A stretch of DNA of 64,000 nt from Geopsychrobacter electrodiphilus DSM 16401 (lineage in GTDB: Bacteria; Desulfobacterota; Desulfuromonadia; Desulfuromonadales; Geopsychrobacteraceae). This document shows, one piece after another, positions 2,702-53,248 of this stretch. Below the pieces are notes generated by a model, which made no database searches, was not told where the DNA came from, and saw only the letters and a list, made by a program, of their open reading frames with translations. The stretch lies in assembly GCF_000384395.1 (NCBI RefSeq), contig NZ_ARWE01000001.1:1116001-1180000 (forward strand). Direction: 5' to 3'. The first letter of the stretch is position 1. Each line of letters opens with the position of its first letter. A program made the position numbers and the translations under genes.

Positions 2702-4849
2702 ATGTCTGATCAATCCTATTTTGCGACCGCCGCGCGCGGACTCGAAACGCTGCTGGTTACGGAACTCGTCTCCTTCGGCGCCGTCGAAGTTGAGGAGGCG
2801 ATCGGAGGTGTCCACTTTCAGGGTCCGCTGCAGGTTGCCTTGCGGGCCTGTCTCTGGTCGCGGTTGGCGAGTCGGATTCTGGCGCCGATCGCCGAGTTCG
2901 CGGCCGATACCACTGATCAACTTTATGACGGTGTCAGGCAGATCGACTGGCGTCAACATCTGGATATCACCAGCAGTCTGGCGGTGGATGCCCATGTGTC
3001 GCAATCAAAAATCGACCATTCCCGCTATGCCCTGTTACGGGTCAAAGACGCGGTGGTCGACCAGCTGCGCGACAGCAACGGCCAGCGGCCCAATATCGAT
3101 CCTCTCGATCCCGATCTGCGACTGAATCTTTATCTTTTCCGTAATCGCGCGACCATCAGCATCGATCTCAGCGGCGCTGCTCTGCACAAGCGTGGTTACC
3201 GCAGCGACGGCCTGAGCGCACCGCTCAAAGAGAATCTGGCGGCCGCGATTCTGCTCAGCTGCGACTGGCCAGCAATCCATGCGGCCGGTGGGGCCTTTCT
3301 CGACCCGATGTGCGGTTCCGGCACTCTGCCGCTTGAGGCTGCGATGATCGCGACGGATTCCGCTCCCGGTCTCCATCGTGAGCACTTCGGTTTTCTGGGT
3401 TGGCGTCAGTTCGACGGTCAGCACTGGGATGAGCTGCTGGAGGAGGCCGAAGCACGCAAGATCGCAGGTCTCGAACGTCAGCATCCACCGCTGATCGGTT
3501 ACGATGAAAACACCCGCGCCATCCGTCAGGCCTGGGAGCATGCCCGGGCCGCCGGGGTGGATCGCTGGGTGCATTTCGAGCGGCGTGAGCTGGGGCAGGT
3601 TGAACCCCCGGCGACCGAGTCGGGGTTGCTGGTGACCAATCCCCCTTACGGTGAACGACTGGGAGAGGCTTCAGACTTGCCGCCCCTTTATAATCGGCTG
3701 GGGGAGAAGATGTGTGCCTTCGGCGGCTGGCAGGCGGGGGTGATCACAAGTGAAGTGGAACTGGGGCGGGCCATCGGCCTGCGCGCCCATCAGCGGACCC
3801 CGCTCTATAACGGGGCGCTCAAGTGCCAGTTGCTGCATTTTACCCTAGATGAAACCAACCACTGGAAATCACTGGCCGATGGCGCCGGACGTCCGGTGGC
3901 TCGCCGGCTGACCGCAGAAGCCGAGATGCTGGCCAACCGTCTGCGCAAGAACCGTAAAAAACTATCAAAGTGGCTGAAAGCTGAACGCCTGGAATGCTAC
4001 CGTTTGTATGACGCCGATCTGCCGGAATTCAACATGGCGATCGATATTTATGGCGACGAGGTTCATCTTCAGGAATATCAGGCGCCCAAAGATGTCCCCG
4101 AACAGAAGGCCGAACGGAGGGTACGTGACGCTGTCTCGGCGGTCATGCAGGTCCTGGAGGTGCCGAACGGAGCGGTACATACCAAACAGCGCCAGCGCCA
4201 GAAGGGGGTCAGCCAATATCAACGCCAGGATCGGCGTGGCGTACTCAAACAGGTCAACGAGGGGGATTTGCGGTTTCTGGTGAACTTGAGTGATTATATT
4301 GACACTGGGCTGTTTCTGGATCACCGTCCGACGCGCCAACTGTTGCGTTCGCTGGCAGCGGGGACGCGCTTTCTCAATCTGTTTGCCTATACCGGAACCG
4401 CCAGCGTTTATGCCGCTGCCGGCGGTGCGGCGGAAACTACCACCGTCGATATGTCCCGCACCTACACCGACTGGGCGCAAAAGAATATGCAGCTGAACGG
4501 TTTTGACGGGCCGCAGCATCAGTTCGTGCAGGCCGATTGTCTCAGCTGGCTGGAGCAGCCGCAAAAAAGCTATGATCTGATCTTTCTCGATCCGCCCTCT
4601 TTTTCCAATTCCAAGGGGATGGACGGCACCTTTGACATTCAGCGTGATCATGTGAGGATTCTGCAGTCAGTCATCAAATTCCTGGCGTCCGGAGGGATTC
4701 TGATTTTTTCCAACAATCTGCGCAGTTTCAAGCTGGACAGCGACCAGTTGCCTGGGCTGAAGATTGAAGAGCTGAGTAACCAGACCCTGCCGCCTGACTT
4801 TGCCCGCAACCCGCGGATTCACAACTGCTGGCGCATCGAAAGGGCTTAA
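2702..4849 (+). CDS. rlmKL: Bifunctional 23S rRNA methyltransferase RlmKL
   Basis: Two methyltransferases in one chain. The N-terminal half (THUMP domain, then a fold with TNPPYGERLG) makes m2G2445 and the C-terminal half (LDPPSFSNSKGMDG) makes m7G2069 of 23S rRNA in E. coli. The length of 715 aa fits the fused gammaproteobacterial-type enzyme. The frame is open back to a TTG at 2657, directly after the M16 stop. I chose the ATG at 2702 because MSDQSYFATAARGLETLL aligns with the usual RlmL N terminus, although no strong ribosome binding site precedes it. Cytoplasmic; acts on rRNA during ribosome assembly. Confidence 0.95.
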   Translation: MSDQSYFATAARGLETLLVTELVSFGAVEVEEAIGGVHFQGPLQVALRACLWSRLASRILAPIAEFAADTTDQLYDGVRQIDWRQHLDITSSLAVDAHVSQSKIDHSRYALLRVKDAVVDQLRDSNGQRPNIDPLDPDLRLNLYLFRNRATISIDLSGAALHKRGYRSDGLSAPLKENLAAAILLSCDWPAIHAAGGAFLDPMCGSGTLPLEAAMIATDSAPGLHREHFGFLGWRQFDGQHWDELLEEAEARKIAGLERQHPPLIGYDENTRAIRQAWEHARAAGVDRWVHFERRELGQVEPPATESGLLVTNPPYGERLGEASDLPPLYNRLGEKMCAFGGWQAGVITSEVELGRAIGLRAHQRTPLYNGALKCQLLHFTLDETNHWKSLADGAGRPVARRLTAEAEMLANRLRKNRKKLSKWLKAERLECYRLYDADLPEFNMAIDIYGDEVHLQEYQAPKDVPEQKAERRVRDAVSAVMQVLEVPNGAVHTKQRQRQKGVSQYQRQDRRGVLKQVNEGDLRFLVNLSDYIDTGLFLDHRPTRQLLRSLAAGTRFLNLFAYTGTASVYAAAGGAAETTTVDMSRTYTDWAQKNMQLNGFDGPQHQFVQADCLSWLEQPQKSYDLIFLDPPSFSNSKGMDGTFDIQRDHVRILQSVIKFLASGGILIFSNNLRSFKLDSDQLPGLKIEELSNQTLPPDFARNPRIHNCWRIERA

Positions 4850-46834: not shown

Positions 46835-47710
46835 ATGAGCTGGAATTTATCCGGTTTATGGGAGGCTTTTTTGAATCTGGATGATAAACAGACCACGCTA
46901 GAGGTGCTATCTGCTGAGATCGAAGATCTTAAGCGCCGTATCGATATCGGTGAAACTGGCCTTTCCGGGCCGTTTTCCCGCCGTCTGCAGCTTCAGTACG
47001 CGCTGCGCGCCGAGCTCGAAGCCGCAGAAGATAAAGATGCCGACGAAGACCCACTGCTGAAGCGTCTGCGGGTCAAACGCTCCTACCGCATGTCACCAGC
47101 CGCGCTCGAAGCCCGCCAGCAAAACGCCCAAAAATCAACCGGACCTCAAACCTCCGAAGGTAAAGACGCCAGCGCGCGTAATAGCTGGAAGCATGGCCAG
47201 CATGCCCGCCGCCGGGTGATCGGTTTCGGCAAGCCCTGCAAATCAACCTGCCCGCAATACCCTTGCTCACTGGTCGAAGATGGCGCTGTTCAGCCTGGCC
47301 AAGATTGCCAGGACAAAGCCTATTTCGCCGCAACTTTAAATGCCATCTCAAAAGCCCTGAACGATGGCGATCTAACCGACATGAAAGAGGTTGTCACCTT
47401 GCAGCTGGGCGGCACCCTTCAGGTGATTGAAGAGCTTCAGGCCTCCATCCTTGAAAATGGCGTTTTCATGAAGAGCGAAAAGCTGGGCAAAGAAGGCCAG
47501 GTTCTCGGCTATGAGCTAAAACCGAACCCTTCGTTGTTGCCGCTCTCCAACCTGCTTAAGGCCGCTGGCGTAACCCTGCCGGACTTTATGATTACCCCCG
47601 CCGCGATCGAGCGGAAAAAAACCGACGACGACACCCGCGAAGGTTTGGCCGATATCTTCAGGGTTGCCAGTGAAGGGCTGACCCGCGCCCGTGAAAAGAA
47701 AGATGAATGA
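46835..47710 (+). CDS. Putative terminase small subunit
   Basis: 291 aa. Placed directly before the large terminase with a 4-bp overlap. An N-terminal coiled region is followed by a basic ARQQNAQKSTGPQTSEGKDA segment. A cysteine group (CKSTCPQYPC) and a helical C-terminal half are also present. The function is inferred from position; no DNA-binding motif is certain. First gene after late promoter 1, with no ribosome binding site. Confidence 0.6.
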   Translation: MSWNLSGLWEAFLNLDDKQTTLEVLSAEIEDLKRRIDIGETGLSGPFSRRLQLQYALRAELEAAEDKDADEDPLLKRLRVKRSYRMSPAALEARQQNAQKSTGPQTSEGKDASARNSWKHGQHARRRVIGFGKPCKSTCPQYPCSLVEDGAVQPGQDCQDKAYFAATLNAISKALNDGDLTDMKEVVTLQLGGTLQVIEELQASILENGVFMKSEKLGKEGQVLGYELKPNPSLLPLSNLLKAAGVTLPDFMITPAAIERKKTDDDTREGLADIFRVASEGLTRAREKKDE

Positions 47711-49614
47711 CCTCCGCGCCGATCGAGACAATACCCCCGGTTGAATACCCGGGGTTAATCGTCCCGCCGCCAATGGCGCCGCTGAATGCTGAGTCCGATT
47801 TAGGCAAAGGCATCCTTGTTCCACACGCCACCTTTGAGCGAATTCTCGAAAACCTCGATTGGACCTGGCAGCAACTGACCCGCGGCGAATTTCCCCCCGC
47901 AATCTACAAGCTCGGAAAAGATACCCACGAACGCCTGCAGCTGTTGCAGCTGGCCATCATCTGCGAAGACCCGCTGCTCTGGTGCACGGCTTTTTTGCGT
48001 GAGCCCGAAGATATCGACCACAAAGATCCGTACCAGTTTTTTGATTATCAGGTCGCGTCCCTGCGCTGTGAAACCAGCGTCGTACACCAGGATGGCGCCG
48101 AGGTTGGCAAAACCCGCGAGATTGTCGCCTGGTCAACCTGGAAAAACCACACCTGCCCAAGCGGATCCGGATTGATCGGCGCGCCGCTGCAGGTGCACCT
48201 GGATGAGATCATCGACGCCAAGCTCGAACAGCTGTCATACAACCCGCTGCTCGAAAGACGCCTGGTCAAACATAAAAAACAGCCATACACCCAGTTTAAA
48301 TTCAGTAACGGATTCAAAGAAGATTACCGCCCCGCCGGGTTCGATGGTAACGCCTACCGCGGCGTGCACGCCAAAACCTACGGTATTGTCGACGAGGCCG
48401 CAAAAAAGAAAAACCCCAAGCAATGGTCAGAGTTCTGGCGATCGCTCAAGCCATCCGCCACCGGCCGGGTGTATTCCGTACCCGATGGCGATCGCGAATC
48501 AGGCTACTACAAGCTCACGCAGCGTGCGACAAGTAACACCGACGAAACCGCAGGAGGACAAGAAGATGCCGGAAAATCCGACTTCAAAGATTTCGATAAT
48601 TATGTCTGGACGCTCTTCCGTTGGGGCAAAGATCTTATGCCCGCTCCTTACTGGACGCCAGAGCGTAAGCGCTTTTACGTCGACCAGTACGGTGGCGAAG
48701 ATTCACCAGATTATCGACACAACGTCCTCGGCGAACACGGCGATCCAGAAAATTCTGTCTTCCCCTGGGCGCAGCTGAAGCACTGCATCCGCGATGTGCC
48801 TGAATACCGCGTGCTCAAGGTGCTGGTCGATACCGCCAAACAAGAGGTCATCGTCAAAGGTTCTCGCTGTGATTACGTCATCGGTACTGATGGCCCCCAG
48901 CCCAGCGAAATCATTCTGCGCGAAGAACTGTTTGACCAAACCCAGCTGTTCGAAGTGGATGAATCAGGTGACAGCCAGTTTAAACGCTTGATCCGCGAGT
49001 TTTTTGTTTCTGTCCCGGGCTTAAGGCGGGGCGGTGGTGACTTCGGTTTTGCCCCCGATCCGACCGAGCTGACTATCTGGAATATTATCGGCAAGCGCGA
49101 TCGCCTGGTCTCGCGCCTGCAGCTGAAGCAGGTCACCTATGATCAGCAGTGTCAGGCCTTAGATGCCATGGATGACCTGTGCGGTGGCGTAGCCGATACC
49201 GCAACCTGGGGCACTGACTACGGCAACGCCGGCAGCGCCGTTGCACACGATCTGCAAGGCCTGCAGATTTACCAGCACAAAAGCTACGAAGACCGCCTGC
49301 GCGGCTTCATGTTCCAAAGTACCACCGATAATGTCGACGAAAGCGGCGAACCACTCACCGACGCCAAAACCGGCAAACCCGCCAAGATCACCCTTAAAGA
49401 GTTAGCCACCGACCTCATCGTCAAGCAGATGCAACGCCAGCTGCTCGAGCTACCGGCAGATCCCGACATTATCAGCGACTACACCAATCACACCTGCCGA
49501 ATCGGTGAACGGCAGCGCATCTACAACAAACAAAAAGATCACCTGATCGATTCGCATCGCACCCAAAAGCTGGCCGGGGTGCTTGGCCAAGAGGTGGAGG
49601 ATATTTTCGCATGA
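47707..49614 (+). CDS. Terminase large subunit
   Basis: 635 aa DNA-packaging motor. The degenerate ATPase region has SVVHQDGAEVGKTREIVAW as Walker A and YGIVDEAAKKK as Walker B. A nuclease domain follows at ~residues 440-560 (RRGGGDFGFAPDPTELTIW, DTATWGTDYGNAG). ATGA overlaps at both ends. Confidence 0.85.
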   Translation: MTSAPIETIPPVEYPGLIVPPPMAPLNAESDLGKGILVPHATFERILENLDWTWQQLTRGEFPPAIYKLGKDTHERLQLLQLAIICEDPLLWCTAFLREPEDIDHKDPYQFFDYQVASLRCETSVVHQDGAEVGKTREIVAWSTWKNHTCPSGSGLIGAPLQVHLDEIIDAKLEQLSYNPLLERRLVKHKKQPYTQFKFSNGFKEDYRPAGFDGNAYRGVHAKTYGIVDEAAKKKNPKQWSEFWRSLKPSATGRVYSVPDGDRESGYYKLTQRATSNTDETAGGQEDAGKSDFKDFDNYVWTLFRWGKDLMPAPYWTPERKRFYVDQYGGEDSPDYRHNVLGEHGDPENSVFPWAQLKHCIRDVPEYRVLKVLVDTAKQEVIVKGSRCDYVIGTDGPQPSEIILREELFDQTQLFEVDESGDSQFKRLIREFFVSVPGLRRGGGDFGFAPDPTELTIWNIIGKRDRLVSRLQLKQVTYDQQCQALDAMDDLCGGVADTATWGTDYGNAGSAVAHDLQGLQIYQHKSYEDRLRGFMFQSTTDNVDESGEPLTDAKTGKPAKITLKELATDLIVKQMQRQLLELPADPDIISDYTNHTCRIGERQRIYNKQKDHLIDSHRTQKLAGVLGQEVEDIFA

Positions 49615-50834
49615 ACATTTTAGGGCTCAACATCTCACGCAGCAAAGCGCCGTCAGAATCACACACCGTGCAGCTCCGTCCGAACAACGGTCAAGGGCCC
49701 TACACCGCCGGGTTTCGCAAGTTCATCGCGCAAAAGCTGGATCCAACTTTCTTTGAGTTTATGCGTGAAGCCATCCCGGTGATGGATACGGCGATCTGGC
49801 GGTTGGTCTCTCTGGATGGTCACCTGGTGGTAAAAGGGAATAAGGCGGCGCTGGTCGAAGAGATTCAGGAGTGGATGGATAATGTGCAGGTCAATGACTT
49901 TCAAACCGGCATGCACGCTTTTCATCAGAACCTGACCAACGAAGGGTTTGAGCAAGGTTTTGCGATTGGTGAGTTCATCCCCAACAAACAACGCAATGAC
50001 ATTGTTGGTTTGAAGGTCGCCGATTCAAAATTCATCCGCTTCAACCGCAAGCCGAATTTGCTTGAGATTCTGCAGCGCGCCGACGGTGATCAGGACTGGC
50101 GAGTGCTTAAAATGGATCCGCTGCTCTACTGGTCCATCCATAACGAAAATCAAAACCCCTATGGTACCCCCCTGTTTCGTTCTTGCGAGTTTATGGCCCA
50201 AACCCTGGCGACCATGCACAACTCGCTGGCCAACGTCTGGGAACGCTTCGGGGATCCATCATATTCGGTCGTCTACAAAACCAGCAAAAAAGACGGTACC
50301 AACCATCAAGAACGTCGTGACGCCATGGTCACCGATCTTAACGACGCCGTGCGGGCCAAACGCGCCGGCAAGTCCGCCGACTTTGTCCATGCTATTGATA
50401 CCAACAGCGAAATCGAAATCAAAATTATTGGAGCAGAAGGTAAAATCTTAAATCTTGAAGTCCCGGCTCGGCATGTCCTTGAGCAGATCGTCGCTAAATC
50501 AACTTTACCAGCCTGGATGCTCGGCATGCACTGGAGCACCACCGAGCGCCTGTCGGTGATGGAAAGTGAAATGGTCTTGGCCGATGCTAAAACCCGTCAA
50601 TCAGCCAAGCTTCCCATGTTCAACCGCACCGTCTCTACCCTGCTGCAGATGCGCGGCCGCACCTGGAAAAAGGGCGACTGGTGGCTCGAGTTTGAACAGG
50701 TCAACCTGCACGATATCGAAAAACAAGCTCGCGCCAGATTCTTGAATGCCCAGGCCGATATGATGGGAGCCGATCCGGTAGCAACAGACACGACGCAAAA
50801 GAAGGAGGCCCAGTTCGTCGGAAAAAAGCTATAG
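49611..50834 (+). CDS. Portal protein, DUF935 (Mu gp29-like)
   Basis: 407 aa. Motifs of Mu-like portals are DTAIWRLVSLDGHL, GFAIGEFIP, DPLLYWSIHNENQNPYGTPLFRSC and LPAWMLGMHWSTTERLS. It forms the dodecameric DNA gate of the head. The stop TAG comes 3 nt after an in-frame A AAA AAG heptamer. A -1 shift there would extend the protein by 515 residues into the next reading frame. The unshifted protein is near the lower end of the family length. Confidence 0.9.
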   Translation: MNILGLNISRSKAPSESHTVQLRPNNGQGPYTAGFRKFIAQKLDPTFFEFMREAIPVMDTAIWRLVSLDGHLVVKGNKAALVEEIQEWMDNVQVNDFQTGMHAFHQNLTNEGFEQGFAIGEFIPNKQRNDIVGLKVADSKFIRFNRKPNLLEILQRADGDQDWRVLKMDPLLYWSIHNENQNPYGTPLFRSCEFMAQTLATMHNSLANVWERFGDPSYSVVYKTSKKDGTNHQERRDAMVTDLNDAVRAKRAGKSADFVHAIDTNSEIEIKIIGAEGKILNLEVPARHVLEQIVAKSTLPAWMLGMHWSTTERLSVMESEMVLADAKTRQSAKLPMFNRTVSTLLQMRGRTWKKGDWWLEFEQVNLHDIEKQARARFLNAQADMMGADPVATDTTQKKEAQFVGKKL

Positions 50835-50861
50835 CTGCTGATTGCCTTTGCGGTCAGCAGC
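50802..50861 (+). other. Candidate programmed -1 ribosomal frameshift site
   Basis: Three elements in dnaX order. AAGGAGG is at 50802-50808. The slippery heptamer A AAA AAG, in the portal frame, is at 50822-50828. After 5 nt comes a stem 50834-50844 with 50851-50861 (8 perfect Watson-Crick pairs, then two G-U and one G-C) and a 6-nt loop. The zero-frame TAG is at 50832-50834. The -1 frame is open from well upstream of the site through to 52375. Confidence 0.8.
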
Positions 50862-50965
50862 ACACCAAAGAGATTCACCGCACGGATCCATGGCCCGATC
50901 TTGACCGGTTAGAAAACAGTTTCGAAAGACGGCTGAAATCTGACTGGATTGCGCTGCGAGACAAG

Positions 50966-52375
50966 GTGCATGAAATCCTAACACTTGGCGTCGTTGTTCC
51001 TGAAAAGGGCGTCAGCCGGGAAAACTTTACCTTTTCGCTGGAAGAACGCGGCCAAGTGTTAGCCGAAATGCGCAATTGGATCGGCACCTACAAGGTTGAC
51101 GCTGAAGATTCCCCTATCCGTTGGTATTACGGCGAATCATATAGCCTCGGTTTGATCCAGGCCGTCGAATTGATCGGCAAGGGGCGGCCGATTCTGGATA
51201 TCCTCAAAAATCAAGAGATCCTCGACAAGCTTAAGAAAACCGGTTTCGACCTGGTAAAGGATAACGCCACCAAACGGATACAGAACCAGATTCTGTCCGA
51301 GATGGAGGCACATGCTTTGGCTGGGAGTAACCCGCGCGAAGTTGCCGCCAGGCTGGATAAGCTGTTTGAAGATGGCAACAGCGATTGGGAGCGGTTGGCG
51401 CGCAGCGAGCTGAGTATGGCGGCAGAACGCGCCAAGGAGGCAGAGTGGACTGCCTGGGGCGTTGAGACGATGGATTTTGTGCCAGCGCCTGACGCCTGTC
51501 AGCAGTGCACCGGCTTAGCTGGTGAGTACAAGATTAACGAATGTCCTCTTCCAGTTGAAGACACCCACCCACGTTGCCGTTGTGCAAGACGTCCTGGGGC
51601 AGGTGTTGATTCACTCAACCTGCAACGCCCGCCAGAACCAAAACCAGATGCCACAACATTTGTCGAAGCGAAGAGTTTGAAAGACGCCGAAGAGTGGGCC
51701 AGAAAAAACGGTCTGGCTGATCTGATCTCATACAAAGGCGCAACTGTCGAGGTTGCCAATGAATGGAACCGTTCGGTGTTTGATCATGTCACCCGTTTCC
51801 CCGAGCTGCGGCAGAACTTGAAATTTATCGGAACCACCCAGGAGCGGCAGAGGACATTCGTGCGGTTATATGTTGCCGAACTGCGCGATCGCTACCCGGG
51901 TTACAGTGAAGAGTCGTTGATCCGGTTGGCCAGAAAACAGGCCGGAAAAACTCCATCCAGTGTGTATGCTTATTCGATCAATGACCCATACACCAGCGGT
52001 ATAAGTGTCAATTCCATCTGGGGCAAGGCACCAGACAAATTCAAAAGCAATCTTGCCTCAGATGTCGCATCCGGGTTCCATCCGAACGGGTGCGATTCGG
52101 TGCGTTCGGTTGTTGACCACGAGATGGCTCACCAGTTGGATAGTCTGCTTGACTTAAGACGTAGTGACGAATTTAAAGAAGTGATGCAGGGATTCTTAGC
52201 AGAGGGTGGAAATATCCCGAGCGAACTGTCAAGGTATGCCCTGAAAAGCCCGTCCGAAACCATCGCCGAGGCATGGGCCGAATACTTGAATAATGAAAGT
52301 CCACGAGCTCTCGCGAAAAAAATTGGTGAGCTGATAGAATCAAAATACAAGCTTAAGTTCGGAGGTGAATCATGA
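50966..52375 (+). CDS. Head morphogenesis protein (gpF/SPP1 gp7-like) with C-terminal metalloprotease domain
   Basis: The head domain (residues ~60-215) ends in the conserved [30 protein letters not shown] second domain (~250-469) has HEMAHQLD (HExxH) followed ~45 residues later by [13 protein letters not shown], the layout of a gluzincin-type zinc protease. A GTG at 50966 with no good RBS is the only in-frame start, and the frame is open 46 codons further back to the frameshift site. The protein is therefore probably made mainly as a 921-aa portal fusion. Confidence 0.8.
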
Positions 52376-52677: not shown

Positions 52678-52833
52678 ATGAGTAAAAAAGACGCCAACCG
52701 GTTGAAGCAGGGCCAGGTCAAAAAGATTGGTCATGTCGCCGACGAAGATGAGTGTGAATTCAAGGGGAAGGGCGTCGAAGTAACCAAGTCAACCCAACCT
52801 GAATCCAAGGAGAAACATCGTGGAAAAGATTAG
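52678..52833 (+). CDS. Small highly charged phage protein
   Basis: 51 aa, Lys/Glu-rich, no hydrophobic core, probably disordered. First gene after late promoter 2. Overlaps the next gene by 14 bp. An upstream in-frame extension to 52627 runs through the promoter and is rejected. Confidence 0.5.
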   Translation: MSKKDANRLKQGQVKKIGHVADEDECEFKGKGVEVTKSTQPESKEKHRGKD

Positions 52834-53248
52834 TCTGCTGGTCACATTGATCGCCACTATCGCCGGATTTATGGATATCCCCGAAAAGGCAGACGCTAAG
52901 GCAAAACTGGCTGAGGCTTTCGAAGGTGAATTTACTGACGATGAGTTTGATCAGGCCGTTGCCCTTTTTGAGGAACAGCAAAAACAAGCTGCCATCGTCG
53001 CCGAAATCGGCAAGCTTAACCCTGCCGATAAAGCCCATTACACCAATGGGAAAAACCCCAAGCCGCATGCTGGCGTGTTGGGCGAGCGCCTCGGGTTCTC
53101 CATTTCGGCCAAAGAGCGCGATGCCGCCTTTGCTGTTTTTCTGAAAGAAAATCCCCCCGCAGAAGCCCCACCGGTTAAAGCAGAAACCGGCATGGTCACT
53201 GGTGAAGATGTCCTCAGAAATATGCGCAAGCAGGGGAAGCGGATCTGA
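52820..53248 (+). CDS. Phage head-region protein of unknown function
   Basis: 142 aa, GTG start with AAGGAG upstream, helical, acidic. Lies before the protease-scaffold gene and overlaps its start by one base. Not recognised. Confidence 0.55.
   Translation: MEKISLLVTLIATIAGFMDIPEKADAKAKLAEAFEGEFTDDEFDQAVALFEEQQKQAAIVAEIGKLNPADKAHYTNGKNPKPHAGVLGERLGFSISAKERDAAFAVFLKENPPAEAPPVKAETGMVTGEDVLRNMRKQGKRI

Follow-up and report, generated by a model that had tools for sequence, protein, structure and literature searches.

How does a phage make a head protein whose reading frame offers no ATG, GTG or TTG ahead of its conserved N-terminal part? The question is raised by the window, by which we mean the whole stretch of 64,000 nucleotides analysed here (Geopsychrobacter electrodiphilus DSM 16401, contig NZ_ARWE01000001.1, positions 1,116,001 to 1,180,000 of the forward strand), where the stop codon of a portal gene lies within a long -1 frame that encodes a MuF-like minor head protein. 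A first-pass annotation had proposed a programmed -1 frameshift fusing the portal to this gpF/MuF-like protein, and that proposal is supported as the best reading of the locus. Specifically, we consider it highly probable that frameshifting yields both a portal and a portal-MuF-HExxH fusion, although in the absence of expression data the occurrence of the shift, its rate and the existence of mixed portal rings are inferences. The signal itself, its conservation, the MuF coding frame with the selection acting on it, and the fused homologues are established at the level of sequence.

The junction between the two frames

The features on which the argument rests are listed below. Relatives are denoted by locus numbers; L038 and L031 (in G006, a genome from the genus of the window host) are one and the same sequence.

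49611-50834, + strand: portal protein gene, 407 aa (PHROG portal, E 8.8e-58; Pfam Portal_Mu)
50803-50808, + strand: Shine-Dalgarno-like AGGAGG, a possible stimulator, 13 nt 5′ of the heptamer
50820-50834, + strand: portal stop region GGA AAA AAG CTA TAG in the zero frame, with TAG at 50832-50834
50822-50828, + strand: A AAA AAG, slippery heptamer read in the portal frame (L038, L057 and L179 have it in the same phase, L128 has G GGA AAG)
50828-52375, + strand: predicted MuF-like (SPP1 gp7/Mu gpF) minor head protein, -1 frame, 515 codons (PHROG matches; selection versus L038)
50834-50861, + strand: 12-bp stem-loop, arms 50834-50845 and 50850-50861, beginning 5 nt 3′ of the heptamer
50966-50968, + strand: GTG, the first ATG/GTG/TTG of the MuF frame; a start there would drop 46 conserved codons
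51611-52372, + strand: C-terminal domain 3′ of the MuF part, likely a zincin metalloprotease, limits approximate (PHROG matches to residues 311-511 and 373-485)
52118-52132, + strand: HEMAH (HExxH) motif in the MuF frame, with HEMAH also in L038

The AGGAGG, the 13-nt spacing and the zero-frame heptamer at the portal 3′ end are all found where the first-pass annotation had placed them. Its spacing of 5 nt to the stem holds as well, but the stem is not of the 11 bp given there: it comprises 12 bp, including two G.U pairs, closed by a 4-nt loop. The zero-frame TAG, which had been set between heptamer and stem, is indeed present, but its G is also the first paired base. As claimed, no stop interrupts the -1 frame over the 515 codons from 50828 to a TGA at 52373-52375, and the proposed products of 407 aa (portal) and 921 aa (fusion) are correct, as the 406 codons that run through the heptamer and the 515 of the -1 frame add up to 921. 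The same annotation was also right that the MuF frame by itself has only a GTG start, without a ribosome-binding site and with the N-terminal part missing; no Shine-Dalgarno motif is visible on inspection of the sequence 5′ of the GTG at 50966.

With respect to stability, the window stem has a predicted energy of -21 kcal/mol (z -3.3), and only 1 of 200 shuffled sequences was equally stable, as were 18 of 2000 synonymous-codon permutations within the MuF gene. The frequency of the heptamer by chance was estimated from the gene-like ORFs of the window and 400 kb of the same genome, in which A AAA AAG in the slippery phase occurs 17 times in 395 ORFs (135,292 codons). The portal heptamer is the sole one of the 17 that lies three codons or fewer from a stop codon, and none of the others is followed by so stable a fold. 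Avoidance of the slippery phase in these 395 ORFs is unsupported: 17 occurrences compare with 11.3 expected from codon shuffles, and there is therefore no sign that the host purges it, which is a point against frameshifting.

Judged by three criteria for programmed -1 frameshifting, the window has a zero-frame X XXY YYZ heptamer inside an ORF overlap (as do all four loci at which portal and MuF are split), a downstream structure a few nucleotides away that exceeds coding constraint (a criterion that L179, taken by itself, does not satisfy), and, from the shift site onward, a conserved ORF in -1 that shows coding selection in the comparison with L038.

The proteins encoded by the two frames

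The window portal passes the model for Mu-type portals, PF06074 (30.6 bits; cut-off 23.9), and its predicted structure is of low confidence (pLDDT 65.4). The MuF frame matches PHROG families for head morphogenesis (3e-26) and minor head protein (8.2e-17). Against TIGR01641 (MuF/SPP1 gp7), the window (27.2 bits, 3.9e-6) and L038 (35.8 bits) both fall below the cut-off of 39.65, which is passed by the homologues L179 (40.6) and L003 (40.7). No Pfam match to the window MuF frame was obtained at 0.001, and the predicted MuF structure gave no match to solved structures at E ≤ 0.001. This structure does include a confidently modelled helix (residues 23-50) that precedes the GTG at 50966.

The C-terminal domain of the window protein matches a PHROG named zinc-finger protease (4.2e-9), and the L038 frame has a Pfam match, below cut-off, only to another zincin-type family (E 0.033). 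The domain is likely a zincin metalloprotease as judged from such matches; activity of the HExxH motif has not been shown. This C-terminal region is variable, in that some relatives stop after MuF and others carry different domains. An HExxH motif stands behind MuF in the window, L031/L038, L003, L009 and L128, and the fused portal-MuF genes of L057 (2151-4757) and L008 (4557-7256) carry a PBECR2 nuclease-like and a methyltransferase C-terminal domain, respectively. The variable C-terminal domain that marks MuF polymorphic effectors is present, as judged from sequence alone. The first-pass description of the phage as Mu-like is appropriate for portal and MuF and has to be limited to them, because the phage also encodes a tyrosine integrase, a primase, and tail-tube and tape-measure genes.

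Two neighbouring frames may be mentioned here. The gene 5′ of the portal (47707-49614, 635 aa) would be the terminase large subunit by position; its product has no match at E ≤ 0.001 in either Pfam or PHROG, and relatives of it were found at 15 distinct loci in viral contigs. A small ORF (52820-53248), flanked by the MuF gene and the one at 53248, has no Pfam match and has a counterpart in L038 (9048-9470), as judged by eye.

Conservation of the split and alternative explanations

The arrangement was placed in context by a profile-based survey of loci L002-L066, L097, L118, L119 and L121-L199, of which 75 distinct loci were kept. Thirteen were dropped with one part missing, and the remaining excluded ones were copies with the same portal end; loci that are near-identical without being identical, such as L063 and L065, were counted apart, and row L002 corresponds to the window itself, in its IMG/VR copy. 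Portal and MuF form one continuous frame in 71 of the 75 loci, and it is this that establishes the identity of the fused product. The two are split at four loci (the window, L031/L038, L128 and L179), in every case by -1, and such rarity counts against frameshifting. All four have a slippery heptamer, exactly one sense codon and then the portal stop (CTA TAG in the window, CTC TAA in L038, GAG TAG in L128, CCC TGA in L179). The first ATG/GTG/TTG of the MuF frame lies 134 nt past the portal stop in the window and in L038, 218 nt past it in L128 and 215 nt past it in L179. Folds as stable as the observed one were rare among 2000 synonymous permutations for L038 (1), L057 (4) and L128 (9) but not for L179 (890). 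A Shine-Dalgarno-like motif at fixed spacing is not supported in the relatives, with AGGAGG at 13 nt in the window, AGGAGT at 19 nt in L038 and weak motifs elsewhere.

Searches of genomes, in which the host's own genome is counted throughout, found the portal in 5 of 195 relatives and 1 of 395 genomes of the phylum, and MuF in 8 of 277 genomes of the class, 2 of 9 of the genus and, with a profile, 3 of 395 of the phylum; a portal profile of the L128 group found 7 of 277 genomes of the class. Among annotated records, the portal was found in 6 phage records, MuF in 13 and the L057 protein in 8 plasmid records. Only the junctions L118 and L119 entered the survey from these records, and both are fused. 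The fused gene of L119 (KY697807.1, 4296-6467, Microcystis phage MACPNOA1) is labelled 'glycerone kinase', apparently wrongly. Separately, L018, a fused relative, has an internal TAG at 4155 in its MuF part that is open in the near-copies L017 and L019, and which may be an assembly error.

The first-pass annotation had proposed relatives as a check on the signal, and heptamer, stop and stem do recur in L038, with the same layout in other letters in L128 and L179. L038 is 74% identical to the window in the portal (residues 19-388) and 83% in MuF; its portal ends ATA AAA AAA AAG CTC TAA, an A9G run, and is followed by a 10-bp stem. Synonymous sites are nearly saturated between the two, both frames are under purifying selection, and the arrangement has been retained. 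Strong purifying selection is evident in the MuF frame as a whole (dN 0.12, dS 1.95), and the 46 codons 5′ of the first GTG (dN 0.22, dS 1.11) are therefore inferred to be translated. Synonymous difference in the first 15 codons 3′ of the heptamer is 0.21 versus 0.69 overall, the lowest of any MuF stretch. One portal stretch shows an equally low value, which counts against frameshifting.

L128 and L179 are more distant phages. L128 (TerL 63%, portal 47% and MuF 54% identical to the window) ends its portal with CCG GGA AAG GAG TAG, with a strong stem beginning 5 nt after the heptamer G GGA AAG and no homopolymer run above 3 at the slippery site. The L179 portal ends GGA AAA AAA AAG CCC TGA, with the site inside an A9 run, and its G+C-rich hairpin is no better than permuted codons, a further point against frameshifting. 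Two other sequences contribute little at the junction: L178 is 99.97% identical to L179 over 3801 bases and diverges 5′ of the junction, and L122 (TerL 86%) ends before it.

The runs at these sites bear on the possibility that the fusion arises by transcriptional slippage, in which RNA polymerase inserts or skips an A within the run and ribosomes then translate the altered mRNA normally. A9G runs are long enough for such slippage, and they are present at the L038 and L179 sites; however, the window run is only A6, and L128 has GGGAAAG without a long run. Moreover, slippage would not need a stem at such a distance or the phase of the heptamer, and we regard it as improbable.

A separate MuF protein, made by re-initiation past the portal stop or from a non-standard start codon there, would agree with the gene order of most MuF phages, in which muf is described as just downstream of the portal (PMC5576092, consulted in part), and the GTG at 50966 has a counterpart in L038. 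Such a protein would nonetheless lack the 46 conserved codons and the modelled helix that precede this GTG, for which no Shine-Dalgarno motif is visible, and the first starts in L128 and L179 lie still farther from the portal stop. In addition, the other 71 loci are fused. With only ATG, GTG and TTG considered, no start was found before the conserved N-terminal part, and we hold out very little prospect for a separate protein.

That the gene is an ordinary fused one, split only by a sequencing error or by a recent inactivating indel, can be set aside almost entirely: fusion is the family norm (71/75) and the window site is a 6-A run without read-level evidence, yet L038 is split alike in a different genome with nearly saturated synonymous sites and purifying selection on both frames, homopolymer error cannot explain the L128 split because the heptamer there differs, and all four splits are in -1, a single codon separating heptamer from stop in each. 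A simple broken gene is ruled out by the same kind of split in L038 and L128.

A proposed frameshift and its bearing on head composition

Programmed -1 frameshifting would allow a single start codon to serve for two proteins. The majority of ribosomes would terminate at the TAG at 50832 to give the 407-aa portal, and a fraction would slip back one base on A AAA AAG, aided by the stem 5 nt 3′ and perhaps by the upstream AGGAGG, and read 515 further codons to give a 921-aa portal-MuF-HExxH fusion. A host tRNA-Lys with anticodon UUU was found and a CUU gene was not, in a possibly incomplete tRNA list for which 150 of the 167 candidates were scored and 30 of 42 places accepted as loci. The bacterial UUU Lys-tRNA is described as highly shifty on AAG (PMC4066793, partial text).

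Portal rings consist of 12 subunits and are generally treated as assemblies of identical ones. As the predicted fusion shares the portal assembly domain, a few copies should join the ring, and MuF and the HExxH part would enter the head with them; both the minority status of the fusion and its place in the ring are inferred. Its low number, such as has been reported for SPP1 gp7, would then be set by translation rather than by binding. If this is true, frameshifting fixes the ratio of portal to fusion both genetically and covalently, and the portal ring is heterogeneous.

Comparison with E. coli dnaX, to which the first-pass annotation had likened the signal, is instructive. The dnaX shift makes a short product, whereas that of the window would make the long one, so the output is opposite; the genes differ as well. 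The likeness does extend to the individual elements, namely A AAA AAG, an upstream Shine-Dalgarno-like sequence and a downstream hairpin, with the reservation that the Shine-Dalgarno-like motif of the relatives is not at fixed spacing. The dnaX direction is found in L057, one fused frame whose linker has GGA AAA AAG in the same phase, followed by a fold of -31.7 kcal/mol. The -1 frame ends there after 4 codons, and a shift would free bare portal; in the window, L038, L128 and L179 the predicted shift makes the fusion. In dnaX the heptamer follows the Shine-Dalgarno sequence by 10 nt and the hairpin lies 6 nt downstream, against 13 and 5 nt in the window (PMC11162774, text available in part).

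Other known systems share some of these features. In frameshifting of the phage lambda gpG/gpGT type the products are tail assembly chaperones absent from mature virions, whereas portal and MuF are head proteins, and -1 frameshifts have been described for tail genes of phages as well as for a gene encoding a major head protein (PMC5009743, seen in part). SPP1 gp7 and other MuF proteins resemble the window protein in their position beside the portal, low copy number, binding to the portal and variable C-terminal domains (PMC5576092, PMC6316719; both in part), but their muf is its own gene directly downstream of the portal (accessible text of PMC5576092). The low-copy SPP1 gp7 reaches the procapsid by binding the portal and is dispensable for assembly, although only about 25% of virions are infectious without it (available portion of PMC6316719). 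Single-gene fusions of portal and MuF are reported for Microbacterium phage subclusters EA3, EA5 and EA8 and cluster EB (PMC7302621, in part), which are like 71 of our 75 loci. Unlike the window, these fusions occupy a single frame, and every portal would therefore carry MuF; the frameshift passages seen in that source concern tail chaperones.

Single-frame portal-MuF fusions are thus known, and we found no earlier description of a frameshift at the junction in the openly licensed literature, to which this search was confined; the first-pass annotation, for its part, knew of none in Mu-like phages. The sources, each consulted in part, included PMC8008677, PMC7302621, PMC13313380, PMC3483164, PMC6316719, PMC10299305, PMC7911831, PMC5009743, PMC3711429 and PMC4066793. 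The term 'portal' is absent from PMC3711429 and from 300,000 of the 475,107 characters of PMC5009743, and 'frameshift' and 'fusion' are absent from the main text of PMC5576092.

A broader hypothesis is that frameshifting acts as a dosing switch for head cargo, setting the number of portal subunits in a mixed ring that carry MuF and its C-terminal domain, and that it originated or was exchanged repeatedly, involves different heptamers and can run in either direction. We consider the case for it evenly balanced. The four split loci do not cluster together in a portal tree built from 74 rows. One clade (support 100/99) unites the window with L031 and with L030, which is fused; L030 and L031 are nearest each other there, and this grouping of a fused locus with split ones is a point against frameshifting as deduced for the window. 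Given the scatter of split loci and the fused state of L030, the arrangement arose several times or was lost or swapped by recombination. Comparing split loci with nine fused loci that have A6 linker runs, and leaving out the other 61 rows, the tree requires 3 changes, and 153 of 500 label shuffles were as low.

Cargo, defined as more than 60 residues beyond the MuF end, is present at 7 of the 67 loci with a recognisable, complete MuF end; of the 8 loci of 75 left out, L031 and L164 are cut at a contig end and six have no recognisable MuF end. Strong linker heptamers (A6N or GGGAAAG) occur at 5 of 7 loci with cargo versus 7 of 60 without (p 0.0014), and splits at 2 of 7 versus 1 of 60 (p 0.027). 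There is a hint in these sequences that frameshifting and cargo go together, but the association is only suggestive because the sequences are related. Were a phage to use recoding to set the dose of a domain in its head, this would provide a useful handle on MuF effectors.

Where other portal-MuF pairs show a change of frame without explanation, or fused genes have a slippery linker, the model suggests two products. As a separate observation, the linkers of L003, L010, L030 and L192, all fused, contain A runs of at least 7, with a -1 frame that stops within 4-10 codons and with weaker folds; these are possible further two-product genes, to judge from their linkers.
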